A stretch of DNA of 64,000 bases from Caulobacter sp. 602-2 (lineage in GTDB: Bacteria > Pseudomonadota > Alphaproteobacteria > Caulobacterales > Caulobacteraceae). Under the pieces are notes generated by a model. The model was not told where the DNA came from. It worked only from the letters and a program-made list of their open reading frames with translations, and did not search any database. The stretch is from NCBI RefSeq assembly GCF_011043625.1, contig NZ_JAAKGT010000002.1:434001-498000 (forward strand), given 5' to 3'. Positions 8,143 through 52,617 of this stretch are shown in pieces; positions within the stretch are counted from its first letter, which is position 1; every line of letters begins with the position of its first letter. Position numbers and translations under genes: made by a program.

Positions 8143-11046
8143 CTAGAACCTCGCGATCAGCGAGACCTCCATGCGGCGCTTCAGCGGGTCGTCTTCCGAC
8201 CAGCGGTCGAAGAGGTTGCGCACGCCAAGCCGCAGTTCGGTCTCCGATGCGCCGGCGGGCCGGGGCAGTTCCCAGGCCAGGGAGAGGTCGACCGTGGCGC
8301 GTTCGGGCAGCGCTGTCGGGACGTTGGCGTCGATGTAGCGGATGGCGGCCGAGGCGGCGAAGTGGTCGGTCGTCCAGCGCGCGCCGACCGCGCCCCGCCA
8401 CCTTGGCACGCCGCCGTCCGGCGTGCGCTTGTAGACGCCGGAGTCGGCGGGAAGGTTCAGGCGCAGCGTCGGCTGCCAGGTCAGGGCGGCGCTGAGGCCA
8501 AGGCGCCCGCCGGCCAGGTCCAGATCGTGCTCGGCGAGCATGTCCACCGCCTGCATCAGGCTGGAGCCGCTGTTCTCGAAGAGGTCGCGCACCTCCAGGA
8601 TGCGGCCGCCCGTATAGCCCCTGGCGCGATCGGCGTCGGTCAGGGGCGCGCGGATCACCGCGCCGGGAAACCGGTCCTCGTTGAGGATATAGAAGTCGGC
8701 GCCGCGCGAGGCCTGGACGATCAGGTCGCGCCCCTCGATGCGGGTGTAGTCGACCGACAGGCGCGTGCGCGGCAGCAGCGGCGAGGCCAGCACCACGCCC
8801 GCCGAATAGGTCCGGGCCAGGTCGGGCCGAAGATCGGGAGGCGCGCCCCAGACGTAGCGGAACCAGCCTTCCGCATAGACGGGCTGGCTGGGGTTGCGCT
8901 TGGGGTCGACGACGAAGCCGGTGGACATGCTGGTCGTGGTCGAGACCATGTGCGGCTCGGGCAGTTGCCCGCCCGAGGCGTAGGCCGCGCGCAGGATCAG
9001 GCCGTTGACGGGCTCGGCCTTCACGCCGAGCAGGTAGAGGTCGGCCGACTTGTCCAGCGGCGGCGCGGGCGAGCCGTTGAAGATGCGGATGTGGCCGGCC
9101 TGGCGCCGGGCCGCGGCCTGAAGCTCCAGTCCCCGCACGCCCACCACCCCTTCCAGCGGCGCGCGCAGCTCGGCGAACAGCGAGCGCGAGCGGGCGGAGA
9201 CGTGGTTGTCGGGGTGGTTGGAGAAATGCGGCAGCCCCTCCCACAGCTGCTGGGCGGTCAGCGACAGCGTCAGGTCGCGCCCGCCGATCCGGGCGACCGG
9301 GCCCGAAGCGCGCAGCGAGATGTCCTCCAGCCGCGAGGCCGCGTAGGGCGGCGCGGGCGCCCAGGCGGCCTCGTAGCGGGCGAGATCAGCCAGGAACCTG
9401 GCCTGATCGCCGAACGGGTTGGGCGCGGGCCGGCCGTCGCCGGGCGCCGCGCCGCTGGCCACCGAGGTCCAGGCCAGAAGCTCGTAACCGGTCTCGGCGC
9501 TGATCGTGGTGGTGCGGGCCCCGCCCACGGCGTAGTCGACGCCGCCGCGCCAGCGCGCCGGCAGATCGAACACCAGCCCGGCCGTGAAGCGGCGCGAGAT
9601 CACCCGGCTGCGGGTGTTTCCCGAGACGAAGGGCACGGGCGCGACCAGCTCGACGGGGCTCGTTCCCGACAGCTTCGCCGCCGCGCCCTGCCCCGGCGTC
9701 AGCCAGGTCGAGAACGCCCCGGAGGCGGTGGGATAGAGGTCCAGGCTGGAGAGGTAGATGTAGTCGAGATAGGCCTCCGCCCCTCGCCACAGCCTCTGGC
9801 GGACATTGACCAGGACCGCGTCGGTGCGGCTGTCGGTCGACAGCAGGCGGTCGCGGTGGGCCGGGGCCAGGCCCGGCGCCGACTGGCCGGCGTTGCGGAT
9901 CAGCACCGTCTCGATCGGCGTCGAGCCGTCGTAGTCGGCGGGAATGTAGCTCTTCAGCATCGAGACGCCGCCGACCGTGAAGGGGCCGTTGACGCCGAAC
10001 AGGGTGATCCCGTTTCCCGGCGGCCGGCTGTAGGCCTGGCCGGACTTGAGCAGCGCGCCGTCCAGGGGGGCGTAGGCCTCCGCCCGATCGCCATAGGCCA
10101 CGCCGTTGAAGCGCTTCTGGCCGTAGCGGACCATCACCGCCGTGCCGCCGTCGTCGGCGCCATAGCCGATCCGGGCGTCGAAGCGGCTGTAGCCGCCGTC
10201 GCCGTCCTCGCCCGCACCGGCGGTGGCCGCGACCTCGGCACCGCGATAGTCGCGGTCGAGCACCAGGTTGACCACGCCGTTGACCGCGCCCAGGCCATAG
10301 ACGGCGCCGCTGCTCGACCCCAGGGTCTCGATCCGGCCGATCGCGGCCAGCGGAATGGGGCCGACATCGGCCTGCAGCAGGTAGTCGTAGTTCGGGATCG
10401 CCGGCATGCGCCGCCCATCGACCAGCAGCAGGGTCCTGGACTGGGCGTTGGGATCGCGGAAGGCGAAGTTCGAGCGCGACGGCGGCAGGCCCTGCCCCGT
10501 GCGCGGGATCGACTGGCGGCTGTCGCCGTTGCTGGTCAGCCAGGTCTGCAGGAAGTCGTCGGCCGAATGGGACTGGGCGGCGCGCAGCGTGCTGCGCTCG
10601 AACACCCGATAGGGCTGGATGTCGTCGGGATCGCGCCGCTGATCGACGTTCTGGGTGCGCACGCCCACGACCAGCAGTTCGGGCAAGGCCACCGGACCGG
10701 AGGTTTCCTCGGACGGCGCGCCGCGCCCGGCCTTCACCACATAGACGCCGGCCTCGACCCGTTCGAACCGCAGGCCCGATCCGGCCAGCAGCCGCTCCAG
10801 CGCCTCGCTGGGCGTCAGGCGTCCCCGCAGGGCCGGCGCCCGCCGGTCGCCGATCGTGTCGGAAGAGACCAGGATCTCGATCTGCGCCTGGCGGCCCAGT
10901 TCGGCCAGCGCGCGGTTCAGCGGCTGGGCGCGCACGGCCACGCTCGCCGTGCGCTCGGCCGCCCAGGCGGGCGCAACCAGCGCCCAGGCGCAGGCCGCCG
11001 TCGCCAGGGCCCGCACAAGGCCGCCATGTCCGCTTCGAAAGGTCAC
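8143..11046 (-). CDS. TonB-dependent receptor with STN (FecA-like) domain
   Basis: An outer-membrane active transporter of about 967 residues. A signal peptide (ALATAACAWALVAPAWA) is followed by a secretin/TonB N-terminal STN domain (QPLNRALAELGRQAQIEILV), as in FecA-type receptors that signal to sigma/anti-sigma pairs. Then come a plug domain (LLLVDGRRMPAI, IGRIETLGSSSGAVYGLGAVNGVVNLVLD) and a 22-strand-type barrel ending in a C-terminal phenylalanine (SLIARF). GTG at 11046 is the likely start. No FecI/FecR-like pair is adjacent, so any signalling partner must lie elsewhere. The substrate cannot be read from the sequence. Confidence 0.9.
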   Translation of the reverse strand: MTFRSGHGGLVRALATAACAWALVAPAWAAERTASVAVRAQPLNRALAELGRQAQIEILVSSDTIGDRRAPALRGRLTPSEALERLLAGSGLRFERVEAGVYVVKAGRGAPSEETSGPVALPELLVVGVRTQNVDQRRDPDDIQPYRVFERSTLRAAQSHSADDFLQTWLTSNGDSRQSIPRTGQGLPPSRSNFAFRDPNAQSRTLLLVDGRRMPAIPNYDYLLQADVGPIPLAAIGRIETLGSSSGAVYGLGAVNGVVNLVLDRDYRGAEVAATAGAGEDGDGGYSRFDARIGYGADDGGTAVMVRYGQKRFNGVAYGDRAEAYAPLDGALLKSGQAYSRPPGNGITLFGVNGPFTVGGVSMLKSYIPADYDGSTPIETVLIRNAGQSAPGLAPAHRDRLLSTDSRTDAVLVNVRQRLWRGAEAYLDYIYLSSLDLYPTASGAFSTWLTPGQGAAAKLSGTSPVELVAPVPFVSGNTRSRVISRRFTAGLVFDLPARWRGGVDYAVGGARTTTISAETGYELLAWTSVASGAAPGDGRPAPNPFGDQARFLADLARYEAAWAPAPPYAASRLEDISLRASGPVARIGGRDLTLSLTAQQLWEGLPHFSNHPDNHVSARSRSLFAELRAPLEGVVGVRGLELQAAARRQAGHIRIFNGSPAPPLDKSADLYLLGVKAEPVNGLILRAAYASGGQLPEPHMVSTTTSMSTGFVVDPKRNPSQPVYAEGWFRYVWGAPPDLRPDLARTYSAGVVLASPLLPRTRLSVDYTRIEGRDLIVQASRGADFYILNEDRFPGAVIRAPLTDADRARGYTGGRILEVRDLFENSGSSLMQAVDMLAEHDLDLAGGRLGLSAALTWQPTLRLNLPADSGVYKRTPDGGVPRWRGAVGARWTTDHFAASAAIRYIDANVPTALPERATVDLSLAWELPRPAGASETELRLGVRNLFDRWSEDDPLKRRMEVSLIARF

Positions 11047-11184
11047 CCGACAACCTTGCAGAGACCCTCGCCCGCCCATCGGCGCTGGTCTTGGAGAAGT
11101 GCTCGGGCAATAGAACGAACATTGTTATTCAGGCAAGCGTTTGAACGCGCCCTGCCGCCGCCGCGCGGCAAGCGAACACGAAAC

Positions 11185-11242: not shown

Positions 11243-13204
11243 CTATTGGCCCAGCAGCGTCTTTCGCCAGAACATGATGCTGGACCAGAAGTAGTAGTCG
11301 GCGTTTTCCTTCTTGCGGAAGACGTGGCCGTCGTTCTTGGCCAGCAGGTGCCAGGCCTGCCCGCCCTTGGCGCGGACGGCGGCGATCATCTGGTCGGCCT
11401 CGGAGGCCGGCACGCGCGGGTCGGTGCCGCCGGTGGCCACCAGCAGCGGGATGGTGATCTTGTCGACGCTGGTCAGCGGCGAGATCTTCATCAGCTGGGC
11501 GCGCTGCTTGGGATCGCGCTCGTCGCCGTACTCCACGCGGCGCAGGTCGCGCCGGTAGGACTGGGTGTTCTCCAGGAACGTGACGAAGTTGGAGATCGCG
11601 ACGTAGCAGTTGGCGCCCTTCAGGCGCGGGCTGTAGTGCGTGGCCGAGGCGTAGCACATGTAGCCGCCGTAGGAGACGCCGTTGACCGCGAAGCGGTCGG
11701 CGTCCAGCGCCGGCTCCTTGGTCAGGGCGTCGAGGAAGGCCCCGATGTCCTTGACCGAGTCCTCGCGCTTGAACGGGCCGTTGTCGAGATTGACGAAGCG
11801 CTTGCCGTAGCCCGACGAGCCGCGGACGTTGGGGAAGAACAGCGCCACGCCCAACTCGTTGACCAGATAGTTGTTGCCGCCGAGGAAGTCGGGACGGGTC
11901 TGGCCTTCGGGACCGCCGTGGATGTCGACGATCAGCGGGCGCTTGCCGGGGAACTTGGCCGGGTCGGGCTGATAGAGGAAGCCCGAGACCGTCTCGCCGT
12001 CGAAGCTCTTGATCTCCACCAGGCGCGGCTCGACGTTCTTGGCCGGGTCCAGGCCGCCGGTCTCGCTGTGGGTCCACTGGGTGACCTTCAGCGTCCTGGG
12101 ATCGATCGAGAAGGCGTCGCCGGCCACCTTGGCCGACGACATCGACAGGCCGATCTCGCCCCACGGCGAAATCTCGATGGCCGGACCGATGCTGTAGGGG
12201 ATGACGCCGCCGGGCAGGCCCTCGACCGTGCGCACCGCGCCGCTGGCCAGATCCAGCACCCGCACGCGCGAGACCCCGGCCTCGTTGATGGCGTAGACCG
12301 CGAAGCCCCCGTCGGGCGACAGGGCGAAGTCGGAGACGTCCCAGCGCGCTTCCTTGCTGACGGGGACGAAGGCCTTGGTCTTCGCGTCCAGGCGGCCCAG
12401 GCGCAGGAAGTCGCTGTCCTTGTCCGAGGTCAGCCACACCGAGCCGTCGTGGGCGTAGTGGGGATCGACGAACGAGGCCTTGGCCTTGGGATCGGTCAGC
12501 GGGACCATCGCGCCGCTGGACAGGTCCAGCTCATAGACCATGGCCTCGTTGATCGACATGCGATTGAGCACCAGGGCCTTTTGGCCGTCGGCCGAGAAGT
12601 CGGCGATGTTCCAGCCGCCGCCGGTGACCTTGGCGACCAGGCGGTCGGTCTTGGGATCGCGCGGGTCGACCACGTAGAGGTCCATGTCCGCGCCGTTGCG
12701 GCGCGAGGAGGCGTAGCCGACCTGCTTGCCGTCGGGCGACCAGGCGCCGAACCAGTTGCGGCTCTTGCCGTCGGTCACCAGGCGCGGGCGGCCGTCGACC
12801 AGCAGGTAGAGCTGGTAGAACTCGTCGCCGCCGACGTCCTTCTGCAGCACCAGAGCATCGCCGGCCGGCGACAGGGCGGCGGCCAGGATCGGCTCGGCCT
12901 CGAAGCTCAGCTGGCGGCGGTCGGCGTCGGGCTTGGCCACCGTGTGGACCTGGTCGGTGCCGCCGAACCTGGTCTTGATCAGCATCGAGCGATCGGCGGG
13001 GTTCCAGCCCAGGAAGTTGGCGTGGCGGGCCTGCAGGTAGGGCGTGGTCGCCGAGACCAGCTCCTGCGGGATCGGCGGCAGGCCGTCGGCGACGATGGCG
13101 GCCGGAACGGCGGCCACGGGGCCGGCCGCAGGGGCCGTCTGGGCCATGGCGAGGCCGCCGCTCGCCGCCAGCAGGGCGAGCGTCAGGGGAAGGCGCGAGA
13201 TCAT
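11243..13204 (-). CDS. S9 family (prolyl oligopeptidase-like) peptidase, exported
   Basis: A 653-residue serine peptidase. The first residues (MISRLPLTLALLAASGGLAMAQ) are a signal peptide, so it probably acts in the periplasm. Beta-propeller repeats (residues about 60-400, for example LSPAGDALVLQKD, WSPDGKQVGYAS) precede an alpha/beta-hydrolase domain with the triad Ser in NGVSYGGYM (about 511), Asp in GGTDPRVP (about 594) and His in NDGHVFRKKEN (about 628). ATG 13204 begins the signal peptide. It lies 158 bp downstream of a TonB receptor on the same strand, suggesting that peptides imported by the receptor are trimmed here. S9 enzymes next to TonB receptors include lasso-peptide isopeptidases (AtxE), but no lasso precursor or maturation gene is seen, so a general peptidase is the safer call. 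Confidence 0.9.
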   Translation of the reverse strand: MISRLPLTLALLAASGGLAMAQTAPAAGPVAAVPAAIVADGLPPIPQELVSATTPYLQARHANFLGWNPADRSMLIKTRFGGTDQVHTVAKPDADRRQLSFEAEPILAAALSPAGDALVLQKDVGGDEFYQLYLLVDGRPRLVTDGKSRNWFGAWSPDGKQVGYASSRRNGADMDLYVVDPRDPKTDRLVAKVTGGGWNIADFSADGQKALVLNRMSINEAMVYELDLSSGAMVPLTDPKAKASFVDPHYAHDGSVWLTSDKDSDFLRLGRLDAKTKAFVPVSKEARWDVSDFALSPDGGFAVYAINEAGVSRVRVLDLASGAVRTVEGLPGGVIPYSIGPAIEISPWGEIGLSMSSAKVAGDAFSIDPRTLKVTQWTHSETGGLDPAKNVEPRLVEIKSFDGETVSGFLYQPDPAKFPGKRPLIVDIHGGPEGQTRPDFLGGNNYLVNELGVALFFPNVRGSSGYGKRFVNLDNGPFKREDSVKDIGAFLDALTKEPALDADRFAVNGVSYGGYMCYASATHYSPRLKGANCYVAISNFVTFLENTQSYRRDLRRVEYGDERDPKQRAQLMKISPLTSVDKITIPLLVATGGTDPRVPASEADQMIAAVRAKGGQAWHLLAKNDGHVFRKKENADYYFWSSIMFWRKTLLGQ

Positions 13205-13362: not shown

Positions 13363-16092
13363 CTAGAAGCGCATCCGCGCGCCCAGGGTCACGTAGCGGC
13401 CGATGACGTCGTAGTAGGGCGAGTAGAGCGAGCCGATCGGCGGCTCCTTGTCGAACAGGTTGGTGGCGTTGGCGTAGAGTTCGACGTTGTAGCCGTTGAA
13501 CTCGGGCAGCTTGGCGCGCACGCCCAGGTCGACATAGGTGTAGGCCTTGATGTGGCCGTTCACGAGATCGACGGTGTTGTTGTAGTTGCCGGGCGAGATG
13601 TAGCGGGCCCGCAGGTTGGCCCCGAACACCGGACCCGAATAGTCCAGGCTGCTGACAACCCGGAACTCCGGCACGCCCAGGCCGAACGAGTAGCCCTGCG
13701 AGCGGACGTAGTCGATCTCGCTGACGCCGTCGTTGGTGGTCAGGTTGTTGACCCAGGTGCCGACGGTGCGCAGGCGCAGGCGGCCGTCCAGGCTGGAATG
13801 CACGCGCGAGGCGTCCATCGAGTAGGACATCTCCACGTCGACGCCGTCGGTCTTGTAGTTCGACAGGTTGACGTAGGTGGAGACGATCCGGGTGATGGCG
13901 TTGGTGGCGCTGTCGCGGGTGATCCGCGAGCACATGTCCTGGTTGCCGGCGGCGCAGCGGGTGACGATGTCCTGGGCGCCGATCGTGGTGATCACGTCGT
14001 CGATGTCGATGTTGTAGTAGTCGACCGAGACGTTGAAGCCCGGGATCTGCGGCGGCGAATAGACGAAGCCGGCCGTGAAGGTCTTGGCCGTCTCCGGCTG
14101 CAGGGCCTGATTGCCGCCGCCGTTGGTCAGCACGTAGACGCTGGAGCTGGTCACCGGGTCGACGATGGTGTTGTAGCCCGTCGTGCTGGTGGTGAAGAGC
14201 TCGGTCAGGTTGGCCGAACGAATGTCGCGCGACTGGGTGATCCGGCCCCGGAAGCCCGGGAAGAACTCGTTGGTCGCGCCCAGCTTCCACGACCAGATCG
14301 AGCCGGTGGTGTCGTAGTCGCTGATGCGGGCGGCCGCATTGACCTCCAGCTTGTTGAGTACAGGCACGTCGCGGACGACGGGCACCAGCACTTCGGCGAA
14401 GGCTTCCTTGACCGTGAAGCTGCCCGACATCGCCGAGAAGCTGAACGAGGTGAAGGCCTTGGCCGTGTCGAGGGCGCCGACCGAGCGATCGACCGACTCC
14501 TTGCGGGCCTCGCCGCCGACGGCGATCGAGACCGGACCGGCCGGCAGCTCGAAGGGCTCGCCGCGCAGGCTGAAGCCGCCGACGTCGAGCTTGGTGGTCT
14601 CGCGCATGCTGGGCGTGCCGGTGACGTAGGCGATCGCCGCGGCCGAGGGCGAGCCCTCGCCGAACAGGTTGATCGGCACGCAGTTGGTCGTCGGGTCGGT
14701 CAGGGCGATGCGGCAGACCGCCTGGCCGCTCGTCGGGCTGATCACCGAGTCCACGGCGTTGGCGTAGTTCTGGGTCAGCAGGAACCCGGGGGTGTCGATG
14801 TTGTTCTCGTTCTCCCCGTGGCTGTAGTAGGCGCTCCAGCGCCAGCCGTCGCCGAACGCGCCGTCCAGCGCGATCGTGCCCTGGGTGGCCACGCGCTCGA
14901 AGTCGATGGTCGAGTACGACAGGTCGCTGTTGAAGCGGCCCATGGTGAACTGGGTCTCGCCGGCGTTGGCCAGGGCGGTGCGCACGGCGGTCGGCAGGAA
15001 GGCGTTGTCGGCCTTGATCGTCAGGTTGCCGCGGTTGTGGTCGCCGAACCAGATGTAGTCGTTCCACATGCGCGAGTGGCGCAGCTCGGCGGTCAGCTTG
15101 ACGCTGTCGGTCAGGTCGTAGGTGACGCTGGCCATGGTGGCGTAGCGGCGCTGGGGCGTGACCAGCGGCGACAGGTCGTCGTTCGAGGGGCCTTCGCCGC
15201 CGATCGAGTTGGTGCCGCTGACCGTGCCGTAGTCGAAGTCGCGCAGGCTGCCGTCGGGATTGAAGGCCTTGCCCTTCAGCACGCCCGACATGATCAGGCC
15301 GCCATAGGCCGCGTTCGAGAAGCCGACGTCGGGCGCCAGCTTGTAGCGGCCGTCGCCGTTGGGAACGGTGGCCCAGCGGCCGATGTTCGGACGGCTGTTC
15401 TTGGGAACCACGCCTTCGTTGTTGAGGAACTCGCCGCCGATGACGAAGTGGCCGCGACCGTCGGCGAAGCCCGTGCCCCAGGCGCCTTCGACACGCACCT
15501 GCTCGGCGTCGTCATAGGACGAGATGCCGCCCTCGACGCCCAGCTTCCCGCCGGTGAAGTTGCGGTCGATCATGATGTTGGCGACGCCGGCCACGGCGCC
15601 CGAGCCCCAGGCGGCCGAGGCGCCGCCGGTGACGACGTCGACGCCCTTCACCAGCACGCTGGGCACCACGTTCAGGTCGTTCTCGCCCGAGAAGCGGCGA
15701 CCGTCGATCAGCACCAGGGTGCGGCTGATGCCCAGGCCCCGCAGGTCGAGCGGGGCGTTGCCGGCGCCGGTGTTGGTGCCGGTGGTCTGGGCCGAGGTGG
15801 TGGCGCGGAACTGCGGCAGGTCGTTCAGGGCCGCGGCGATGTTCGGGCGCGCGCCGACGGCCAGGTCGGCGTCGGTGACCCGGACGGTCGGCGTCGGGGC
15901 CTGGAAGCCGGCGCGGTCGATGCGCGAGGCGGTGACGACGATCTCGCCGACGCTGTCGTCGGCCTTGTCGCCCGAGGTCTGGGCCAGGGCCGCGCCGTGC
16001 AGCGCCAGCGCCGCGGGCAGGATGCTCGCGCCGATCAGCAGGGCGCGGCGGGAGTGACGTGAAAATGCCAAGTGAGATCCCCTCTCAAACAT
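13363..16092 (-). CDS. TonB-dependent receptor under a glycine riboswitch
   Basis: An outer-membrane receptor of about 909 residues: signal peptide (RRALLIGASILPAALALHGA), TonB-box-like segment (VGEIVVTASRI), plug (LDLRGLGISRTLVLIDGRR, VDVVTGGASAAWGSGAVAGVANIM) and a long barrel ending in aromatic F (GARMRF). Two starts are possible: ATG 16092, or TTG 16071 (MAFSRHSRRALL), which has GAGAGGGG at ideal spacing and gives the more typical signal peptide. A tandem glycine riboswitch lies about 115-290 nt upstream on the same strand. The S9 peptidase gene follows. Uptake of glycine-containing peptides or a related amino compound is inferred from this arrangement; the receptor sequence alone does not reveal the ligand. 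Confidence 0.9.
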   Translation of the reverse strand: MFERGSHLAFSRHSRRALLIGASILPAALALHGAALAQTSGDKADDSVGEIVVTASRIDRAGFQAPTPTVRVTDADLAVGARPNIAAALNDLPQFRATTSAQTTGTNTGAGNAPLDLRGLGISRTLVLIDGRRFSGENDLNVVPSVLVKGVDVVTGGASAAWGSGAVAGVANIMIDRNFTGGKLGVEGGISSYDDAEQVRVEGAWGTGFADGRGHFVIGGEFLNNEGVVPKNSRPNIGRWATVPNGDGRYKLAPDVGFSNAAYGGLIMSGVLKGKAFNPDGSLRDFDYGTVSGTNSIGGEGPSNDDLSPLVTPQRRYATMASVTYDLTDSVKLTAELRHSRMWNDYIWFGDHNRGNLTIKADNAFLPTAVRTALANAGETQFTMGRFNSDLSYSTIDFERVATQGTIALDGAFGDGWRWSAYYSHGENENNIDTPGFLLTQNYANAVDSVISPTSGQAVCRIALTDPTTNCVPINLFGEGSPSAAAIAYVTGTPSMRETTKLDVGGFSLRGEPFELPAGPVSIAVGGEARKESVDRSVGALDTAKAFTSFSFSAMSGSFTVKEAFAEVLVPVVRDVPVLNKLEVNAAARISDYDTTGSIWSWKLGATNEFFPGFRGRITQSRDIRSANLTELFTTSTTGYNTIVDPVTSSSVYVLTNGGGNQALQPETAKTFTAGFVYSPPQIPGFNVSVDYYNIDIDDVITTIGAQDIVTRCAAGNQDMCSRITRDSATNAITRIVSTYVNLSNYKTDGVDVEMSYSMDASRVHSSLDGRLRLRTVGTWVNNLTTNDGVSEIDYVRSQGYSFGLGVPEFRVVSSLDYSGPVFGANLRARYISPGNYNNTVDLVNGHIKAYTYVDLGVRAKLPEFNGYNVELYANATNLFDKEPPIGSLYSPYYDVIGRYVTLGARMRF

Positions 16093-16208
16093 GCAGTCGA
16101 CAGTCGCCCCCGCCCCGGACGCCCATGAACTGGACGGTCCAGGAGCCGCGATCCGCCAGCAGCGCACCACGCGCCGCTCGCGAAACCGCAAGGCGTTCCT
16201 CTGCCCCC

Positions 16209-16382
16209 GCTGTCCTGTTGGCCTGAGAGATTCGGAACGCACCGCGCCCTTGCTCCTTCGGCGAGACGCTCCTCCTGGAGGCGCGCCTGCTTTCCAGCGT
16301 CCTTGTGCTCCGCGGTCCTTTTGCCTGAGCGTTTCCGGGGCGGTTGCGCCTTCGGCGTCGGGTCGAACCTGATCTCTTCCGC
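16209..16382 (-). ncRNA. Tandem glycine riboswitch (two aptamers)
   Basis: Read on the minus strand. Aptamer 1 (16382-16312) opens GCGGAAGAG, carries GCCGAAGGCGCAAC and closes with GCTCAGGCAAAAGGACCGC; the terminal GCGG and CCGC pair as P1. A linker of 13 nt (16311-16299) follows. Aptamer 2 (16298-16209) opens GCTGGAAAGC, carries GCCGAAGGAGCAAG and closes with CTCTCAGGCCAACAGGACAGC, with GCTG/CAGC pairing as P1. CCGAAGG-GCAA and CTCAGGCAAAAGGAC are hallmark conserved elements of glycine (gcvT) aptamers, and the close spacing is the standard cooperative tandem form. The next gene is a TonB-dependent receptor. No T-run terminator is seen before the start, so control of translation is more likely; glycine sensing is from family knowledge. 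Confidence 0.92.
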
Positions 16383-16640
16383 AAGAGCAGGATCAGTTAG
16401 GCCGGGCGTTCCGTTGTCGGCAAAACCGGTGGAGGCGGCATGTTTTCATCGCGCGAGCCGCAATGCGCGGGCACGTTCTTCCTGACGATCAACCCAGGGG
16501 GATCGGCCATCGCCCTGCGGTTTCAACCGATCGGGGGGTCGTGACAGGTCGGTGACAGCTTCGCGGCGCGGGCGCGAGCCGTAAAAATGGGCTGAGCCCC
16601 GCCCTGGCGGATCAATTTGCACAAATACTCATCGACAATT

Positions 16641-16655
16641 GCCCGCGATGCGGGC
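16641..16655 (-). terminator. Short hairpin after the solute-binding protein gene
   Basis: GCCCGC, three bases, GCGGGC, overlapping the stop of the solute-binding protein gene and followed on the minus strand by AATTGTCG. The stem is only 6 bp and there is no T-run, so this is a weak candidate. Confidence 0.3.
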
Positions 16656-16657
16656 GC

Positions 16658-17734
16658 CTAGTCGCGATCGCCCCGTGCGCGGCGCCAGCGGGCCAGCATT
16701 TCCTCGCGCCGGCCCTGGTCGAAGTTGGCCAGCAGGGCCGGTCCCACCCGGATCGGACGGCCGCCCGGCGGCGGGCGCGCGCCCAGCCCCTCGCGGATCG
16801 GCGTCAGCCGCGCCTGCGCCAGGCGCCGCTGCCCCTCCTCCGACATCAGGTAGTCGAGGAACAGGCGCGCGGCCTTGGGATGGGGCGCCGAACGGGTGAT
16901 GAACGCCACCCGCGCGATCGACAGGTAGTAGTCGTCGGGCACGACGTAGCCGATATCCGGCCCCTGCCCGCGCGCCCACCAGTCGGCGTAGGAGCGGTTC
17001 ATGTCATAGGCCAAGAGATGCTGGCCGGCCGTGACGCTGGCCAGGATCGGCGCGCCGGGCACGTAGAGCCCGGGATCCGAGCCCGCCAAGGCGTCGTACA
17101 GCGCCCAGGCGTCCGGATAGACCACCGTGTCGCTCGACAGGTAGAGGAAGCCCACCCCGCTCTTTTCCGGATCGTACATGGCGATCCGGCCGCGCCAGCG
17201 GGCGGGGTCGTCGCGCAGGGCCGCCAGCAGCGCCGCGTGGCTGCGCGGCACGTCCTCTTCTTTCAGCAGACGCTTGTTGTAGGCGAAGACGATCGGCTCG
17301 GCGGTGACGCCGAACCCCTGGTCGCGCCACACCGCCCAGGCCGGCAGGTGGCGGGCCTCGGGGCTGCGGTAGGTCTGGGCGTAGCCGTCGTTGATCAGCT
17401 TGACCTGGATGTCCATCGACGAGCTCCAGGCCACGTCGGCCACCGGCGCGCCGCCGTCGGTCTCGGCCATCACCCGCGCCTGCAATGGCCGGGCGGCGAT
17501 CTCGACCATGGTCAGCTTGATCTTCGGAAAGCGCTTGCGGAACCCCTCGGCCACCGGGCCGTAGACGCCGGTGTTGACGTAGACGACGACCTCGCCCTCG
17601 CGCTGGGCGCCCATGACGTCCCAGGCGCTGGTCGCCTGGCCCTCGACGCGCGGCGCGCACGCCCCCGCCAGACCGGCGAGCCCCGCCGCGCCGATCAGGC
17701 CCAGCGCCCGGCGTCTCTTGACCTCGACTGTCAA
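16658..17734 (-). CDS. Extracellular solute-binding lipoprotein (family 1, iron/organophosphate type)
   Basis: About 358 residues. The N-terminus has basic residues, a hydrophobic stretch and a lipobox ending in cysteine (LAGLAGACAPR), so it should be a lipoprotein. The mature part is a periplasmic binding fold of the FbpA/SBP family (EGEVVVYVNTGVYGPVAEGF, VADVAWSSSMDIQVKLI, ARLFLDYLMSEEGQRRLAQ). TTG at 17734 is the probable start. No permease or ATPase gene lies nearby; instead a TctD/TctE-like two-component system starts 54 bp away in the opposite direction. This arrangement resembles sensing trios in which a binding protein serves a histidine kinase (for example HptA with HptRS). The ligand is unknown. 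Confidence 0.85.
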   Translation of the reverse strand: MTVEVKRRRALGLIGAAGLAGLAGACAPRVEGQATSAWDVMGAQREGEVVVYVNTGVYGPVAEGFRKRFPKIKLTMVEIAARPLQARVMAETDGGAPVADVAWSSSMDIQVKLINDGYAQTYRSPEARHLPAWAVWRDQGFGVTAEPIVFAYNKRLLKEEDVPRSHAALLAALRDDPARWRGRIAMYDPEKSGVGFLYLSSDTVVYPDAWALYDALAGSDPGLYVPGAPILASVTAGQHLLAYDMNRSYADWWARGQGPDIGYVVPDDYYLSIARVAFITRSAPHPKAARLFLDYLMSEEGQRRLAQARLTPIREGLGARPPPGGRPIRVGPALLANFDQGRREEMLARWRRARGDRD

Positions 17735-17788
17735 TCGGCGTCGGATGGCCGGCGCTCCCCTTGCTTTCGTCGTGACGCTACATCCCCG

Positions 17789-18451
17789 ATGAAGATACTG
17801 GTTGTCGAGGATGATCCGCCTCTCCGCCGTTCGCTGACCGCCACCCTCGAGAGCGAAGGCCACGAGGCCGTCTGCGCCGAGACCGGCGAGGCCGCCCTCG
17901 CCCTGGCCTTGCCCGGCGACTTCGACGCCATGATCCTCGACATCGGCCTGCCCGACATCGACGGCTTCGAGATCCTGTCGCGCCTGCGCCGCGAGGGCTT
18001 TTCCACGCCGATCGTCGTGCTGACCGCGCGCGACGCCGTGCAGGACCGCATCGCCGGCCTCGACATGGGCGCCGACGACTATGTGCTCAAACCCTTCGAC
18101 CCGTTCGAGCTGGTGGCCCGGGTGCGCGCCGTGGTCCGCCGCAAGAGCGGCTACGCCGCCCGCATCGTCACCCTGGGCACGCTGACCTGCGACTGGGAGG
18201 CCGGCGCGGCCTGGGTCGGCCAGCGGCGGCTGGACCTGCGCCCCCGCGAGTGGGCCGCGCTCAAGGCCCTGGCCATGCGCCCCGGACGGGTGGTCGACCG
18301 CGGCCAGCTGGCCGCCGAGGTGTTCCCCGACGAGCAGCCGGCCTCGCCCAACGCGCTGGAGGTGCATGTCGGCCGGCTGCGCCGCAAGCTGCAGCCCGAC
18401 GGACCGCAGCTGCAGACCCTGCGCGGCGCCGGCTACCGGCTGGATCCGTGA
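17789..18451 (+). CDS. OmpR/TctD-family response regulator
   Basis: 220 residues: receiver domain with acidic pair EDD at 7-9, phosphoacceptor D51 (MILDIGLPD), T in VVLTARD and K in VLKPFDPFE, then a winged-helix DNA-binding domain (LRPREWAALKALAMRPGRVV, VHVGRLRRKL, TLRGAGYRL). Closest in style to TctD/QseB. The kinase gene follows with a 4-base GTGA overlap, giving translational coupling. It is divergent from the solute-binding lipoprotein gene, which may be its target. Confidence 0.95.
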   Translation: MKILVVEDDPPLRRSLTATLESEGHEAVCAETGEAALALALPGDFDAMILDIGLPDIDGFEILSRLRREGFSTPIVVLTARDAVQDRIAGLDMGADDYVLKPFDPFELVARVRAVVRRKSGYAARIVTLGTLTCDWEAGAAWVGQRRLDLRPREWAALKALAMRPGRVVDRGQLAAEVFPDEQPASPNALEVHVGRLRRKLQPDGPQLQTLRGAGYRLDP

Positions 18452-19812
18452 GGCGCCGCCGCCCGCCCAGCCTCGTCGCCCGCCTGCTGATCGCCCAGGT
18501 GGCGCCGCTGGCCCTGCTGGGCGCGGCGCTGGCCCTGGCCGGCGCCCTGGCCGCCCACCAGGTGGTGGAAAAGACCTCCGACCGGCTGCTGGCCGGCTCG
18601 GTGGCCTCGATCGTCGCCCAGATCGGCGCCGAGGACGGCCGCGCCAAGGTCGCCCTGCCGCCCTGGTCGCTGGGCCTGCTCGACAGCCCCGAGCGCGACG
18701 CGGTGTTCTACGCCGTGCGGCAGGGCCCGCGCCTGGTGACCGGCTATGACGACCTGCCCCACCCGCCGGCCCCGCCGCCCAACGAGACCGACTTCGCCTA
18801 TGCCCAGATGCGCGGCTATCCCGTGCGCATAGCCCAGGCCACGGTGATGGTGCCGGGCGTGGCCGAGCCCGTCGTGGTCGCCGTCGCCCAGAGCCTGGAC
18901 TCCCGCCGCGCCAGCGTGCGCGAGCTGCAGTTCAACTTCATCATCCTGCCGTTGCTGCTGGTGCTGGTCGCCGCGGCCCTGGTGATCCCGGCCGTGACCT
19001 GGGGCCTGGCCCCCTTGCGCAGCCTGACCGCCGACCTGACCCGCCGCGCCCAGTCCTCGCGGCCCGACTTCGCGCCGGTGCGCGACCTGGACGCCCCGGC
19101 CGAACTGTCGCCGGTGGTGGCGGCCTTCAACCACCTGATGCCCAGCCTGGAGCGCTTCACCAAGGCGCTGGAGCGGTTCTCGGCCGACGCCTCGCACCAG
19201 CTGCGCACGCCGCTGTCGGTGATCATCGCCAACCTGGCCCTGGTCGAGCGCTCGATCGAGACCGAGCCGCAGAAATCGCTGCTGAAGGACTCGATGGCGG
19301 CGGCGGCCAACCTGCGCCAGGTGCTCAGCCAGCTCCTGGCCCTGGCCCGCTCGGAGGCGGCCGCCGTCGAGGGGCAGAGCGACCTGCGGCTGCTGGTCGA
19401 GACGATCGCCGCCGAGGTGGCGCGAGACTATCCGGACGTGATCTTCCGCCGCCGTCTGCCCGAGACGGCCACCGCCGCCGGCAATGCGGTGCTGGTCGGC
19501 GAACTGCTGCGCAATCTGGTGTTCAACGCCTGCGCCTATGGGCGGGGCGCGGTGTCGCTGGTGGTCGCCGCCGAGAACGCGGGGCTCAGGCTGACGCTGT
19601 GGGACCACGGCCCCGGGGTCGAGCCCCAGGAGATCGGCGCCATCTTCAGCCCGTTCTTCCGGGGCAAGAGCAAGGCGGCGACCAACGGCGCCGGGCTTGG
19701 TCTGGCGATCGTGCGCTCGATCGCCCAACGGCTCGATATCGGCCTGGCCGCGCGCACGCGCTCGCCACGGCCCGGCCTTGTGGTGGAACTGAGGTTCGCC
19801 GCCGCCGACTAG
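18448..19812 (+). CDS. TctE-like sensor histidine kinase
   Basis: 454 residues from the GTG that overlaps the regulator's stop. Transmembrane segment 1 lies at about 13-40 and segment 2 at about 168-190 (FIILPLLLVLVAAALVIPAV), enclosing a periplasmic TctE-type sensor region. It is followed by a HAMP-like linker, an H-box with His near 249 (SADASHQLRTPLSVI), N-box (LVFNACAYG near 360) and G-boxes (WDHGPGVEP; GAGLGLAIVRSIAQ). TctE-type kinases typically sense carboxylates. The divergent solute-binding lipoprotein may present the ligand. The stop shares the CTAG tetranucleotide with the stop of the convergent cellulose-operon gene. Confidence 0.93.
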   Translation: MRRRRPPSLVARLLIAQVAPLALLGAALALAGALAAHQVVEKTSDRLLAGSVASIVAQIGAEDGRAKVALPPWSLGLLDSPERDAVFYAVRQGPRLVTGYDDLPHPPAPPPNETDFAYAQMRGYPVRIAQATVMVPGVAEPVVVAVAQSLDSRRASVRELQFNFIILPLLLVLVAAALVIPAVTWGLAPLRSLTADLTRRAQSSRPDFAPVRDLDAPAELSPVVAAFNHLMPSLERFTKALERFSADASHQLRTPLSVIIANLALVERSIETEPQKSLLKDSMAAAANLRQVLSQLLALARSEAAAVEGQSDLRLLVETIAAEVARDYPDVIFRRRLPETATAAGNAVLVGELLRNLVFNACAYGRGAVSLVVAAENAGLRLTLWDHGPGVEPQEIGAIFSPFFRGKSKAATNGAGLGLAIVRSIAQRLDIGLAARTRSPRPGLVVELRFAAAD

Positions 19813-20164: not shown

Positions 20165-21178
20165 TTAAGGTCGTTTGCCTCCCTTCTCCCGACCCGCCAT
20201 TTCGGCGAGCAGGACAAGGGCCGAAGAGTAGTACGTGCGATCCTGCGACGCTCCCCGCAGCGCCTGGATCGACGGGTCGTTCAGCGCCAGGGCGGCGATG
20301 GCGACACCCCCGCCAGATAGCGGAAAGTCGGCTTCATGACCGTCGGACATATTGACCCATGCCGGTGGCGCTTTTTGGGCTTGAATCTTTCCGCGCCAAT
20401 ACGCGGCGGTCTCGCGCGCCAGCGAATCTTCTCCCCCCCAGGCCAGATACAGGGGCACGCGAATGGCGTCGAAACCGAATAATGGAGGTTTTTCAGGCGC
20501 TAAGGCCAAGCCACCGTCAGCCCGCACCAGAAGCCAGTCGGGAGGCAGTTTCTGAGCGCCGAACCGCCCCTCCCGAGCCAGTTTCACCCCATCGGCGACC
20601 AGGGTGCGCCAAGGCGCCGCAGGGCCATCCTCGGCGGCGAAATCCTTCAGCGCCGGCAGCACGAAATAGGACGGGTTGACGACCACGCCCGCCGGGCTGC
20701 GGAAGCCTTCCAGGCCCGGCAGCAGCACGGTTCGGCCGCCCACCTCGACCACCAGCCGCTCGGCCACCGCCTCGCGCATGACCCTGGAGGCGGCCAGGTA
20801 TTCCTCGCTCTTCCACCGCCGCCCGGCCCGCAACAGCGCCCAGGCCGCCAGGATGTCGCCGTCCGAGGCGTTGTTCTCGTCGGCGACGGCGGGCGTCGCA
20901 CGAGGATCGTAGCGCCAGGCCAGCAGCGGCGCGTTCTTGCGGACGAGATTGGCGCGGGTCCAGCCCCAGGCCTTGTCGAAGACCTCGCGGTCGCCGTGCC
21001 CCTCGGCCAGCAGCATGGTCCAGCCCTGGCTCTCGCTGTGGCTGACGCCGCCGTTCTCGGGATCGATGGTGCGGCCGTCGGGCTGCACATAGGCCGTCTT
21101 GAACTGCGCCCAGCCGTCCGGCGGCCGCGCGCAGGCCCCCGAACCGCCGCCCGCCGCGACCAGCGCCACGATCAGCAG
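20165..21178 (-). CDS. bcsZ: BcsZ endo-1,4-beta-glucanase (GH8)
   Basis: About 337 residues. Glycoside hydrolase family 8 signatures: HSESQGWTMLLA near the N-terminus contains the general acid Glu, with ENNASDGDILAAWALL and GFDAIRVPLYLAWGG (Asp) further on. A hydrophobic leader ending GSGAC suggests a lipoprotein-type signal. The start is uncertain: no ATG suits, and CTG 21178/21175 or GTG 21169 next to the bcsD stop are the candidates, implying translational coupling. BcsZ trims the nascent cellulose chain in the periplasm. Fourth gene of the bcs operon. Confidence 0.88.
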   Translation of the reverse strand: MLIVALVAAGGGSGACARPPDGWAQFKTAYVQPDGRTIDPENGGVSHSESQGWTMLLAEGHGDREVFDKAWGWTRANLVRKNAPLLAWRYDPRATPAVADENNASDGDILAAWALLRAGRRWKSEEYLAASRVMREAVAERLVVEVGGRTVLLPGLEGFRSPAGVVVNPSYFVLPALKDFAAEDGPAAPWRTLVADGVKLAREGRFGAQKLPPDWLLVRADGGLALAPEKPPLFGFDAIRVPLYLAWGGEDSLARETAAYWRGKIQAQKAPPAWVNMSDGHEADFPLSGGGVAIAALALNDPSIQALRGASQDRTYYSSALVLLAEMAGREKGGKRP

Positions 21179-21179
21179 C

Positions 21180-21653
21180 CTAGACCCGGTGCTCGAACAC
21201 CAGCGGCGAAGCCAGGGGATCACGGCAGGTGGTGACCCCGCCAGGGCTTCCCTGCGCCGCCAGCCAGGCGCCGTAAGCGCCCGCCAGAAGCTCGGCCATG
21301 AGCGGAGGCCAGGCGCGCTTGTCGTCGTCTTCGAGAACATTCGGACAGGCCCCATGGGTGATGAGGATGTGGTCTTCGGCCACGGCGAGCTGCACCCAGC
21401 CCCAGTCCATGGCGTCGAGGATCTCGTTCAGCCGCCCCTCCAGCTCGTCCAGCGTCTCGAGCTTGGGCAGGGCGTGGCGGCGGGCCATCCGCTCGCCCGT
21501 GGCGCACAGGAAGCGCTTGACCGCGCCCTGGTCGCCGACTGCCGCCAGCTCGTCGGCCAGCGACGCCAGGAACGGCGCCCACTGGCCGCTGACCCGCCGC
21601 CGGCGCAGGTAGCCGAGGTCCTTGGACCGAGGATCGAACTCGCTGGCGCTCAT
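21180..21653 (-). CDS. bcsD: BcsD cellulose synthase subunit D
   Basis: 157 residues, the usual length for BcsD (AxCeSD), the periplasmic octameric subunit that helps bundle glucan chains. Supporting stretches: YLRRRRVSGQWAPFLASLAD, LNEILDAMDWGWVQL and ILITHGACPNVLEDD. ATG 21653 overlaps the bcsC stop (ATGA). BcsD marks type I, Komagataeibacter-like bcs operons associated with ordered cellulose. Confidence 0.85.
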   Translation of the reverse strand: MSASEFDPRSKDLGYLRRRRVSGQWAPFLASLADELAAVGDQGAVKRFLCATGERMARRHALPKLETLDELEGRLNEILDAMDWGWVQLAVAEDHILITHGACPNVLEDDDKRAWPPLMAELLAGAYGAWLAAQGSPGGVTTCRDPLASPLVFEHRV

Positions 21654-24600
21654 CGGCCGCCGTCTCCGCCGAGGATCTGCTTCACGCCCACGCTGACCGC
21701 GGTCTCGTTGTAGACGCCGAAGGTGTTGAAGTTGACCGCGCCGCCGATGCTGGCGCCGGGCCGGAACTGGTAGTCGGCCGACAGCCCGCCCGAGATCCCG
21801 AAGCCGCTGGCGCTCTGGGCCAGGTAGCGCGGGAAGACGTCGGCGTCGGCCTGGGCCAGCGTGGTCAGCTCGCCCTGCAGCGCCGGGTCCATCGGGAAAT
21901 AGGCCGCGCCGGCCTGGTTGTAGGTCTGGTAGCCGGGCGCGATGGCGCCCTTGAACTTCCACGGCCCCTGCCTGGCCGTCACGCTGATCGGCGCGGTCAG
22001 GCTGGTGAAGGTCTTGGGGCTGAAATAGCCGCCATGACCCAGGCTGAAGAAGTTCTGGTTGTTGTCGAAGCCCTGCTGGTTGAGGTTGAAGCCGACCTGC
22101 ACCTCGGTTTCGCCGCGGCGATAGGGCCGGATGTAGCCGCCCAGATTGACCTGGTAGCCGTCGTTGTCGGCGACGTGCTCGCCGTCATAGTGGCTGTAGC
22201 TGGCGTCGCCATAGAGGCCCGAATAGCCGTCGTCGTAGGACAGGCTGACCCCGCCGCCGGTGCGCATCACCTTGCCCCAGCGCTGGCCGGTGACCGGGTC
22301 GCGGGCGCCGGCATAGGCCACCACGCTGTCGGTGACCGGGCGACGCTCGATCCAGGCCTTGCCCTGGCCATTGGAGCCCAGGCGCGGCGAGAAGGTCACG
22401 CCGCCGGCGACGTCGACGTCGCCAAAGCCGATCGGGGTCGTGCCGATGTCGGCCTTCAGCGGTCCAGCTTCCATGGCTAGATTCACCGCCGCGCCCGAGG
22501 CGCTCTGCGGCGAGGCGGCGCGATAGACCGGCGCGAACTCGCCGACGATGGCGCGGGCGTTGACGATCTGGTTGCCGCCGTAGCGCTGCTCGGCCGAGCT
22601 CGAGGGCGTGCCGCCGTCGATGCTGACCGGCGAGACCGAGGCGGTGAACCGCACTTCGCCCAGGTTGGCGGATGCCGAGGCGGTGGCCGACAGCTCGTGC
22701 AGCCGGCCAAGGCCCGCCTCGCCCGAGCGGGTGCGGATCTGGGCCGAGCCGGCGACCTGCGCGGCGGTGCGGGCGGTGATCTCGGCGATCTGGCGATCGA
22801 TGTCGCCGACCACCGGATCGCGAGCGGCCGGAGCGACGAAGGGATTGCCCGGCGCGGGCGCGACGGTGCTGGCCGGACGCGGCGAGGCCGCTTCGCCCGC
22901 GCGGCCGTTGCGGCCGGTGAACGGGAAGGCCAGGCCCGCGAAGTTGCGCTCGCCGTTGGTCGAATAGGTGGGCGCGGACGCCGGCGCCGCCGGGGTCAGC
23001 ACGCCCGCCAGCTGGTCGCCGCCCGAGGCCACGTCGACGCCCATCAGCGGCGCGGCGGCGGCCGAGCCCATCAGGTCGTAGCGGCTGGCCGCCACGGGCA
23101 GCACCGGCGAGACGCGGGCCGGGACGCCGCCGCTGGTGAAGGGATTGGGGCCCAGCCCCCCGCCCGGCGTCGCATTGGAGCCGCCCGGCGCCAGCACCGC
23201 GTCGAGGCCCGAGCCGAAGGTCGGCCGACGTTCGCGCAGCAGCTTTGCAGTGCGCAGGGCCTCCAGAGCGCCGCGCTCGTTGCCGGCCTGCCGCTCCACC
23301 CTGGCCGAGGCCAGATAGAGGTCGGCGTCGCGCGGCGAGGCGGCGATGGCCTGGGCCAGGGTGCGGCGGGCGCCGGCCAGGTCTCCCCGGCCGGCCGAGG
23401 CGTCGGCCAGGCCGATCAGGGCCTCCTTGTCGCCCGGCTTGGCCCGCAGCAGCGCGCCATAGGCCTGGGCGGCCTCGTCGTACATCCGGCCGTCGACATA
23501 GACGCGGCCCAGCGGGGCGAGCAGGCGGGTGTTCTTGGGGGCCACGGCGAAGGCGGCCGACAGCACGTCGAAGGCGCTGGCCAGGTCGCCGGACGCGCGC
23601 AGGCGGTCGGCCCGCTCGGCGCCCAGGGTGGCGGTCAGGTCGGCGACGGCGCGGGAGCCCTCGGGCGAGTTTCCGGCGCGGGTGGCGGCCTGGCGGATGA
23701 TGGCGGCGGCCTCGGCGTCGCGGCCGGCCTTGGCCAGCACCGCGACCATGCCGTCATAGCTGGCCGGCGTCTCGGTGACGCCCTCGACCAGGGTGCGCTG
23801 GGCGATCGAGAGCGCGGTCTGGCGGTCGCCGAGGTCGTAGAGCGCCGAGGCCAGCCGGCCCTCGGCGTCGACCGACAGGCCCGGACGGGCCGCGAGCGCC
23901 CGCAGCGTGGCGACGCCCCCGCCCTCGCGCGCCTGGTCGATGGCCGCGTCGATCTCCAGCCGGCCGCGCAGGGCCGTCATCTCCGGCGTCATCCGCCCGA
24001 CCGGCGCGCGGTTCAGCTGAGCCAAGGCCTCGGCGGGCCGTCCCTGCTGGTCGGCGAAGACGGCCGAGGCGTGGATCTGCTCCAGCGAGGTTCCGGTCGC
24101 GACCTGGGACATCAGCCCCTCGGCGGCCTGGGCCTCGCCCTGTCCGGCCAGGAAGCGGGCGAAGTCGAGCCGCACCCAGGGGTCGCTCGGCGCTGAGGCC
24201 AGGGCGCTCTCGAAGGCGGCGTTGGCGCCCGACAGGTCGCCGTTGGCCCACAGCTGGTTGGCGCGCTCGTGGTCGATGCGGCCGCGCAGCACGTTCTGGC
24301 CGCTGGCGTCGGGGGCCAGGGCCGGCGAAGCGGCGGCGACGGTCTCGGCCTCGGCGGTGCGGCCCTGGTCGAGCAGCACCTGGACCAGCCCCTGCTGGGC
24401 CTCGGCCTGGGTCGGGGCGGCGGCCAGGATCTGGCGATAGACGCTCTCGGCGTCAGCGGCCTTGCCCTGCCGGCGCAGCGACTCGGCCAAGAGGTTCGAG
24501 GCCAGCAGGCGGTCGGGATAGGTCTGGGCGGTCAGCGGCCGCAAGGTCTGCTCGGCCTTGGCGGCCTGGCCCTGGTCGAGCGCCGCCTGGGCGGTCTGCA

Positions 24601-51298: not shown

Positions 51299-52519
51299 TT
51301 ACTTGGCCGCGCCCTTGGCATAGGCCTGGGCCTGGCCCAGCAGGCGCAGCACGTTGCCGCTCCAGATCGCCTCGATGTCGGCGTCGGAATAGCCGGCGGC
51401 CTTCAGGCGAGCGGTGATCTTGGGCAGGTCGGCCACGTCCTCCAGGCCCTCGACGCCGCCGCCGCCGTCCCAGTCGGCGCCGACGCAGACAGCCTTGGCG
51501 CCGCCGATCTTCAGCACGTGGTTCATGCTGTCCATGAAGGTGTCGAAGTTGGCGCGGACCGGCGGGAACTTGGCGTCGACCTCGGCTCGCTTCTTCGCAT
51601 AGGCCACGACCTGCGCCTGGGTGGCCTCGTCGCGAGGCGGCTTGCCCAGGGCGTCCAGCGCCGCCTTGCGCTCGGGGCTGTTGGTCGAGGCGCGCAGATA
51701 GACCGAGTTGATGCAGATCGCCCCGCCGCTCTCGGCGATCTTGCGGATATGCGCGTCGTCGAGATTGCGCGGATGGTCGAACACCGCCCGGGCGCCCGAG
51801 TGCGAGGCGATGACCGGAACCTTCGACAGGGCCACGGCCTGGTCCACGACATCGTCCGAGGCGTGGCTGACGTCGATCAGTATGCCCAGGCGGTTGGCCT
51901 CGGCCAGCCAGCGCAGGCCCAGCGGCGAGAAGCCGTTCCAGATCTTGCCCTTGGGGTCGGTCGAGCTGTCGGCGAACTGGTTGTTGCGGAAGTGCACCGG
52001 GCCCGCCATCCGCACGCCCGCGCCATAGAAGGTCTCCAGCAGGGTGAGGTCCTCCCCCATCGGCCAGCTGTTTTCGATGCTCTGGAAGGCGAACTTCTTG
52101 CCCGCCTTGCTGATACGGATCGCGTCTTCCGGCGTATAGGCCAGCTCGAACTTGTCGCCGTGCGCGGCGACCATCTCGCGGATCTCGGTCGCGCGGGTCA
52201 GGGCGAAGTCGCGGGCCCAGCGATAGCCCTCGGCGGTCAGGTCGCCCTGGCCGGTGTAGATCACGAAGAACCCGCCATCGAGGCCGCCGTCGTTCATGCG
52301 CGGCAGATCAACCTGGCTGAAGTCCTGCGGCACGCTGTGACGGTCGACCATGCTCCAGCCGGGCCGGGCGAAGTGCTCGGGCGTGTCGAGGTGGGTGTCC
52401 AGCGTCAGGATGCGCTCGTGCAGCGCCTTATCCGCCTTGGAGACCGGCGCCTCGGCGGCGTGGGCGGCGGCGCCCATGAGGGCGGCCGAGCCGAGGAGGA
52501 CTGACAGCAGGCGACGCAT
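51299..52519 (-). CDS. Exported M19 membrane-dipeptidase family enzyme
   Basis: 406 residues: signal peptide ([20 protein letters not shown]) and renal-dipeptidase fold. Zinc ligands: HLD in [12 protein letters not shown], Glu in [11 protein letters not shown], His in [10 protein letters not shown] and [20 protein letters not shown]. Cleaves dipeptides, including D-amino-acid-containing ones in characterised members. ATG 52519 with GGAGTG upstream. It adjoins the radC remnant and so marks the native chromosome next to the inserted element. Confidence 0.93.
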
Positions 52520-52617
52520 GGAACACTCCGGAACAGCTGATCCGGCCAAGCTCGGAGGAGCCGCGTCCTGCGTCAAGGACATTAGATTTTCTCGCGCCCA
52601 CTTTTCGCGAATGAGCG

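Follow-up and report, generated by a model that had tools for sequence, protein, structure and literature searches.

What a glycine riboswitch is doing in front of an outer-membrane receptor gene is the question raised by a locus of Caulobacter sp. 602-2, contained in 64,000 nucleotides (nt) of contig NZ_JAAKGT010000002.1 (positions 434,001 to 498,000, forward strand), a stretch referred to here as the window. On the minus strand of the window, a tandem glycine riboswitch precedes the gene of a TonB-dependent receptor, referred to here as TBDR1, and this is followed by the gene of an exported S9-family peptidase. Judging from sequence comparison, we consider it likely that the receptor and peptidase operon is under glycine-dependent control, a statement that does not include the direction of that control.

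A covariance-model scan of the window (cmscan, Rfam 15, 4227 families) returns only two matches that reach the gathering threshold, both to the glycine riboswitch family RF00504 and both on the minus strand. Aptamer 1 (16303..16391; 57.3 bits, E 3.3e-9, model positions 1-94) and, directly 3′ of it across a short linker, aptamer 2 (16208..16299; 46.0 bits, E 3.2e-6, model positions 9-86, rising to 51.7 bits over model positions 1-94 in a whole-genome RF00504 search) both lie above the curated cut-off of 32 bits. Two complete minus-strand aptamers had been proposed in an earlier, sequence-only reading of this DNA, and the matches bear them out, with coordinates off by about 10 nt at most. The aptamer 1 core is canonical (GCCGAAGGCGCAA / GAAACGCTCAGGC) and, in a motif comparison, has the same letters as the aptamer 1 core of the gcvT riboswitches of the genus; the core of aptamer 2, whose P1 3′ strand is GACAGCG (16214-16208), has the form commonest among them (11/14). 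The window genome holds two tandem RF00504 sites, with four aptamers, namely the receptor site and a site at G000:C12:764083-764279 whose downstream open reading frame (ORF) is gcvT (L001). These covariance-model matches identify the RNA as a genuine tandem glycine riboswitch of the ordinary RF00504 kind, and from its canonical cores we infer that it binds glycine.

Below the riboswitch is TBDR1 (13363..16071, minus strand; 902 amino acids), with plug and barrel domains that both score above cut-off (PF07715, E 8.4e-15; PF00593, E 4.5e-28). Its longest ORF would begin at GTG 16242, a start that was rejected because this position falls in aptamer 2 and an alignment of 17 orthologous leaders points to TTG 16071; in the ortholog L064 the same column holds ATG. 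The start is thus probably TTG 16071, not the far-upstream GTG. The leader alignment places a Shine-Dalgarno-like GAGAGGGGA at 16078..16086 (minus strand), with a small predicted local hairpin (TGAGA/TCTCA). Beginning 158 nt past the receptor stop, at ATG 13204, is the S9 gene (11243..13204, minus strand; PF00326, E 1.5e-29), whose product is acylaminoacyl-peptidase-like and, by eye, signal-peptide-like at its N-terminus. The closest solved chain in a sequence search is 5l8s, ‘Amino acyl peptidase’ (E 5.7e-43), with which the motifs GVSYGG (Ser), DPRVP (Asp) and DGHVF (His) align, their catalytic roles being assigned by eye. These domain matches agree with the order of TonB receptor and exported S9 peptidase first read downstream of the riboswitch. 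With a peptidase as its neighbour, TBDR1 may import peptides or a peptide-like compound. A third gene, for a TonB receptor with an STN domain (8143-11079), was excluded from the unit, as it has no tblastn match at E <= 1e-15 in ten orthologous regions; among the queries used on those regions, that for the S9 gene started 15 codons before the ATG and that for the upstream substrate-binding protein had a provisional start.

The pairing of this RNA with this receptor is retained in relatives. When the receptor was searched for in 75 genus genomes, 42 had a match at E <= 1e-100, and a clean identity gap separates 12 TBDR1 orthologs (71-100%) from the next match (43% or less). RF00504 lies upstream of all 12, comprising the window, ten fetched regions and L064 from genome G008, and in the ten fetched regions the receptor starts 303-322 nt past the 5′ end of the riboswitch. 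Among 398 evenly chosen genomes of the order, a second Caulobacteraceae genus contributes five more orthologs (69-76%, one gene being split over two contigs), each with RF00504. Six of 20 extra loci scanned carry the family, namely L064 and the five second-genus orthologs; the 14 without it are 13 paralogous receptor loci and the 3′ fragment of the gene that is split.

A scan of named genomes took in 57 loci, of which 19 are from Caulobacteraceae (8 Caulobacter, 9 Brevundimonas, 2 Phenylobacterium) and 38 are from Sphingomonas, Novosphingobium, Sphingopyxis, Stenotrophomonas, Luteimonas, Pseudoxanthomonas, Rudaea, one Lysobacterales metagenome-assembled genome (MAG) and one unplaced alphaproteobacterial MAG. 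The riboswitch is upstream of the receptor in every Caulobacteraceae locus, both by motif and by a custom covariance model (79-91 bits), and in none of the 38 others, where the best model score is 18.3 bits (E 0.15) at a site not upstream of the receptor. The S9 gene is next in 24 of the 38 others and in 18 of the 19 Caulobacteraceae loci; in the nineteenth (L204) the sequence breaks off inside the receptor. As the custom model, built on 12 base pairs only, found the second aptamer in just 9/19 Caulobacteraceae loci, second aptamers were counted by motif, which gives two aptamers at 27/27 TBDR1 loci and, for gcvT loci of the genus, two at 14/20 and one at 6/20. The genus, second-genus and named sets overlap, 36 locus ids corresponding to 24 distinct riboswitch sequences. 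With the link present in 12/12, 5/5 and 19/19 loci of these overlapping sets, a chance association is rejected, and the expectation of the sequence-only reading that the same RNA might precede orthologous receptors in related genomes is confirmed within Caulobacteraceae. Also rejected is the riboswitch as a general trait of the receptor family, given that it is present at 0/13 paralogs and 0/38 non-Caulobacteraceae loci.

Linkage could also be inherited passively, the RNA being a defunct gcv-like element, or a trans element or terminator leader, and the receptor being expressed from its own downstream promoter. The 137 nt from aptamer 2 to the start codon in the window are in keeping with such a history, as is a leader in which terminator scan, fold z-score and Shine-Dalgarno accessibility reveal no recognisable platform. 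The aptamer 1 core, however, is identical in 27/27 examined TBDR1 loci (24 distinct sequences, three genera) despite strongly diverged flanks, and the linkage is kept in every ortholog examined. Before aptamer 1, 13/17 orthologous leaders have a TTGAC-like element, which also speaks against passive inheritance, and in Brevundimonas the distance from aptamer to start is about 80 nt (L160), which leaves small space for a downstream promoter. We regard a defunct or passive RNA as very improbable. In the 13 leaders the element reads TTTGAC; the window and the three nearest rows (L053-L056) have TTTTGCC in this column, a candidate -35-like element some 30 nt before aptamer 1 (16419..16425, minus strand) for which no sigma-70-like promoter exceeds the scan threshold.

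The genus contains a second linkage of the same kind. RF00504 occurs in 75/75 genus genomes, with extra sites beyond gcvT, and 40 riboswitch regions fetched from among the matches listed lead to TBDR1 (10), gcvT (9) or a different TonB receptor of about 800 amino acids, referred to here as TBDR-B (21). Following TBDR-B in 13 of these 21 riboswitch-linked regions, and lacking in 8, is the gene of an M19 membrane dipeptidase (PF01244, E 3e-92), with 2rag, ‘Dipeptidase’, as nearest solved chain (E 1.5e-119); orthologs at >= 84% identity are found in 14 genus genomes, each beside TBDR-B by coordinates. TBDR-B gave 43 matches in 40 genus genomes, of which 34 were fetched (L124-L153, L231-L233, L238). 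Excluding L135, which ends at a contig edge, the tandem riboswitch is present by motif and model at 22 of 33 evaluable loci, with two aptamers by motif in 22/22, and is lacking at 11; the M19 gene is in none of these 11 riboswitch-free loci, L151 included, within the 1.5 kb fetched. Of 13 TBDR-B homologs fetched from the order outside this genus, none has a riboswitch by the covariance model. A dipeptidase unit with a like RNA makes a peptide-related role more plausible. An M19 paralog also lies in the window (51299-52582, minus strand; matched at G000:C12:485323-486510), with 53% identity to the TBDR-B-linked enzyme.

Distinct from the canonical form is aptamer 1 of TBDR-B. The same three letters of its core are changed in 22/22 loci (L124-L134, L136-L141, L143-L145, L147 and L148), giving GCTGAAGGCGAAA / CTCAAGC in place of GCCGAAGGCGCAA / CTCAGGC, and on the RF00504 structure line two of the three changes turn a paired C-G into U-A, seemingly in compensation. 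It is therefore listed here as a candidate variant aptamer. Variants of the glycine riboswitch that reject glycine are reported in the available text of PMC9481103, citing Weinberg et al. 2017, and together with the fixed TBDR-B change they allow for a receptor-gene riboswitch with an altered ligand, sensing a glycine-containing peptide or another small molecule. For the window RNA, with both cores canonical and matching gcvT forms, we hold this to be very improbable. The TBDR-B leaders (L016-L049, L124-L148) have about 270-300 nt of AT-richer, partly conserved sequence between riboswitch and gene; by eye this includes the inverted repeat CGCGATCG...TTTCGCG, which may belong to a terminator or to another promoter.

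The likely source of the RNA is the leader of gcvT. RF00504 is found in 120/120 genomes of the order searched, and at 58 further sites from genus and order (L005-L012, L094-L123, L211-L230) the adjoining gene is gcvT in 55 and TBDR1 in 3. A tree of 73 tandem riboswitches (L036 being left out of 74), in which Caulobacteraceae are joined by 8 rows from a single other family, has 3 changes among the three labels gcvT, TBDR1 and TBDR-B, against a shuffled mean of 32.5. The TBDR-B riboswitches form one side of a branch (Shimodaira-Hasegawa-like approximate likelihood ratio test, SH-aLRT, 98), TBDR1 needs 2 changes, and both sets fall among the gcvT riboswitches of Caulobacteraceae. Because of this grouping the switch seems to have been recruited from a gcvT leader, in the simplest reading within Caulobacteraceae, to an operon that is also found without a riboswitch in other groups. 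Cellular glycine would then set the expression of a presumed peptide uptake and hydrolysis unit.

As to the direction of control, we have a slight preference for glycine-ON, by inference only, on two grounds: the RNA clusters with those of gcvT, and the first of its aptamers is conserved better than the second. In the available text of PMC6944388, the conserved aptamer is aptamer 1 where the context is glycine cleavage and aptamer 2 where it is transport, and context tends to predict polarity, with ON for glycine degradation and OFF for transport. Conservation of aptamer 1 and aptamer 2 is 0.84 versus 0.72 for TBDR1 (22 loci), 0.79 versus 0.63 for gcvT (18 of 21 loci, 3 without exactly two motifs being dropped) and 0.93 versus 0.76 for TBDR-B (19 loci). 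The sequence-only reading had offered two options, import and degradation of glycine-rich peptides under glycine feedback, or glycine as a signal of peptide availability; of these, feedback (repression) is disfavoured by this pattern, which resembles gcv-type ON riboswitches. Under glycine-ON control the operon would be induced along with gcvTHP in a substrate-type manner, glycine from imported peptides promoting uptake as well as glycine breakdown. A broader proposal is that of a glycine ‘catabolic regulon’, in which the gcvT ON riboswitch was copied twice onto TonB-receptor/peptidase operons, glycine serves as an intracellular signal of peptide or protein that induces uptake, hydrolysis and cleavage together, with the importer ON, and the TBDR-B aptamer 1 core has since changed; we offer it tentatively, and doubt it more than we trust it. 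If true, a glycine riboswitch that switches an importer ON would contradict the rule for transporter contexts.

The same riboswitch and target could instead work as an OFF switch, glycine repressing receptor and peptidase as feedback against glycine overload. This has a substantial chance of being right, though somewhat less than an even one. Besides the tie between transport context and OFF, it draws on several Brevundimonas leaders with a TC[A/G]T element that could, by eye, pair with ATGAC of the aptamer or with the Shine-Dalgarno ATGAGG. The window leader, in contrast, is without TC[A/G]T and has CTGTC there, with no match to its Shine-Dalgarno by eye; no sequestration of the Shine-Dalgarno is predicted in the aptamer-closed state, and the better conservation of aptamer 1 is the opposite of the transporter pattern in PMC6944388.

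Several results weigh against glycine-dependent control as set out here, or against one of its parts. Closest to the RNA are those on the leader. A terminator scan of 16000-16700 finds no intrinsic-terminator-like site, as first noted, and folding of the leader as a single sequence gives a z-score of -0.97. From the missing terminator a translational readout had been deduced, a mode preferred in Proteobacteria according to the available text of PMC6944388; the scan remains in line with it, but folding of 24 leaders (22 distinct, with the start of L159 set by hand) predicts no switching, the accessibility of the Shine-Dalgarno being unmoved by whether the 3′ strand of aptamer 2 is available or removed (mean -0.003, largest single -0.22), so that translational switching gains no support. 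The aptamer-2 P1 3′ strand may nonetheless be part of the switch. Its candidate alternative partner, weak in a duplex test, is CGACTGTCGAC (16096..16106, minus strand; GACAG/CTGTC), and in 20 of 24 leaders the best pairing of this type ends 14-26 nt ahead of the start codon (the start of L159 being misplaced in this test); the helix lies within shuffles in 18/24 and at or below the 5% level in 6/24 only, with shuffle fractions from 0.01 to 0.71 and 0.16 for the window.

Further from the leader, the transporter-type tandem glycine riboswitch of S. pyogenes represses with glycine in the available text of PMC5829553, a precedent for OFF. Aptamer 1 is also better kept in gcvT and TBDR-B riboswitches, so the pattern may be inherited and not evidence of ON; the difference could also come from variability in the P3 loop of aptamer 2. 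The NCBIfam and PDB relatives of TBDR1, all far below cut-off, are heme, siderophore and B12 receptors. The window genome’s own TBDR-B (L151, G000:C1:718120-720435) has no riboswitch. The tree is midpoint-rooted, with 29 of 69 inner branches open and further long branches flagged; TBDR1 forms no single clade, and the long-branched L225, a gcvT row, falls within the receptor group. Finally, the genes upstream of the riboswitch suggest a different regulatory signal for the operon.

These upstream genes encode a periplasmic substrate-binding protein (SBP_bac_8/SBP_bac_11; 16658..17692, minus strand, provisional start) and, divergent from it, a two-component pair (17789..19812, plus strand). The response regulator of the pair (to 18451) is OmpR-type and PmrA/TctD-like by NCBIfam, below cut-off; the histidine kinase has an HQLRTP box, as read from its residues alone. 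In the named-genome scan the substrate-binding protein gene adjoins TBDR1 in 19/19 Caulobacteraceae loci and 0/38 others, and the response regulator gene in 19/19, with one distant 40% match among the 38. The simplest reading is that receptor and peptidase form the older unit, to which riboswitch and sensor neighbours are Caulobacteraceae additions, with their loss elsewhere as the alternative. The arrangement of the three genes (16658-19812) is like that of a three-component sensor and may sense the receptor cargo. Farther along the window, a glycoside hydrolase family 8 gene (20165-21355, minus strand; PF01270, E 1.1e-66) comes after a large, repeat-rich ORF (21650-26755) of the same strand; to the eye the region looks like a putative bacterial cellulose cluster.

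A glycine riboswitch before a receptor-peptidase operon suggests that Caulobacter-type bacteria couple peptide scavenging to the glycine level. Caulobacter lends itself to genetic work, and for two of its many TonB receptors with cargo yet to be assigned the riboswitch is a clue. The locus is also an example of a riboswitch added to an operon: sphingomonads and xanthomonads have just the receptor and the peptidase, Caulobacteraceae the riboswitch as well. It further offers a clean test case for the association of transporters with OFF control and a conserved aptamer 2, since an uptake gene here has the aptamer-1-conserved, gcv-like form.

As far as we searched, what is new is the target, the RNA itself being ordinary. 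In the available texts, glycine riboswitches are assigned to the metabolism of glycine and serine and to glycine transporters (PMC3766115); targets in metagenomes are gcvT, serC and malate synthase (PMC2211319), and those in SAR11 are gcvT and glcB (PMC5069720). Among the papers listed by full-text searches of an open-access library, none was found to link a glycine riboswitch to a TonB receptor, a scope outside which lie supplements, subscription papers and RegPrecise, so that an earlier annotation is possible (PMC3766115 covers four Caulobacterales genomes, with gene lists in its supplements). With the present locus, outer-membrane uptake and peptide hydrolysis would join a glycine regulon made up so far of metabolism and of transport across the inner membrane.

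Among known systems, the closest is the gcvT tandem riboswitch of RF00504, which the window RNA resembles in its two canonical aptamers, short linker, single downstream coding unit and same-genome core letters, and from which it differs in preceding an outer-membrane receptor and a peptidase and in a leader that looks different past the aptamers. Where cobalamin or thiamine pyrophosphate (TPP) riboswitches control receptors, the cargo is assumed to be the molecule that the RNA senses, or one of its precursors. With the cobalamin riboswitches (PMC5756330) and the B12 and TPP riboswitches on BtuB-like receptors (PMC2211319), as far as these texts are available, the window RNA shares an outer-membrane receptor gene as target; unlike in those cases, glycine cannot simply be taken as the cargo of TBDR1. 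With the riboswitches of sodium:alanine/glycine symporters, inner-membrane proteins (S. pyogenes, available text of PMC5829553), it shares the placing of a glycine riboswitch on an uptake function, and it is unlike them in that its target is a TonB-dependent receptor with a hydrolase and that conservation favours aptamer 1 over aptamer 2.

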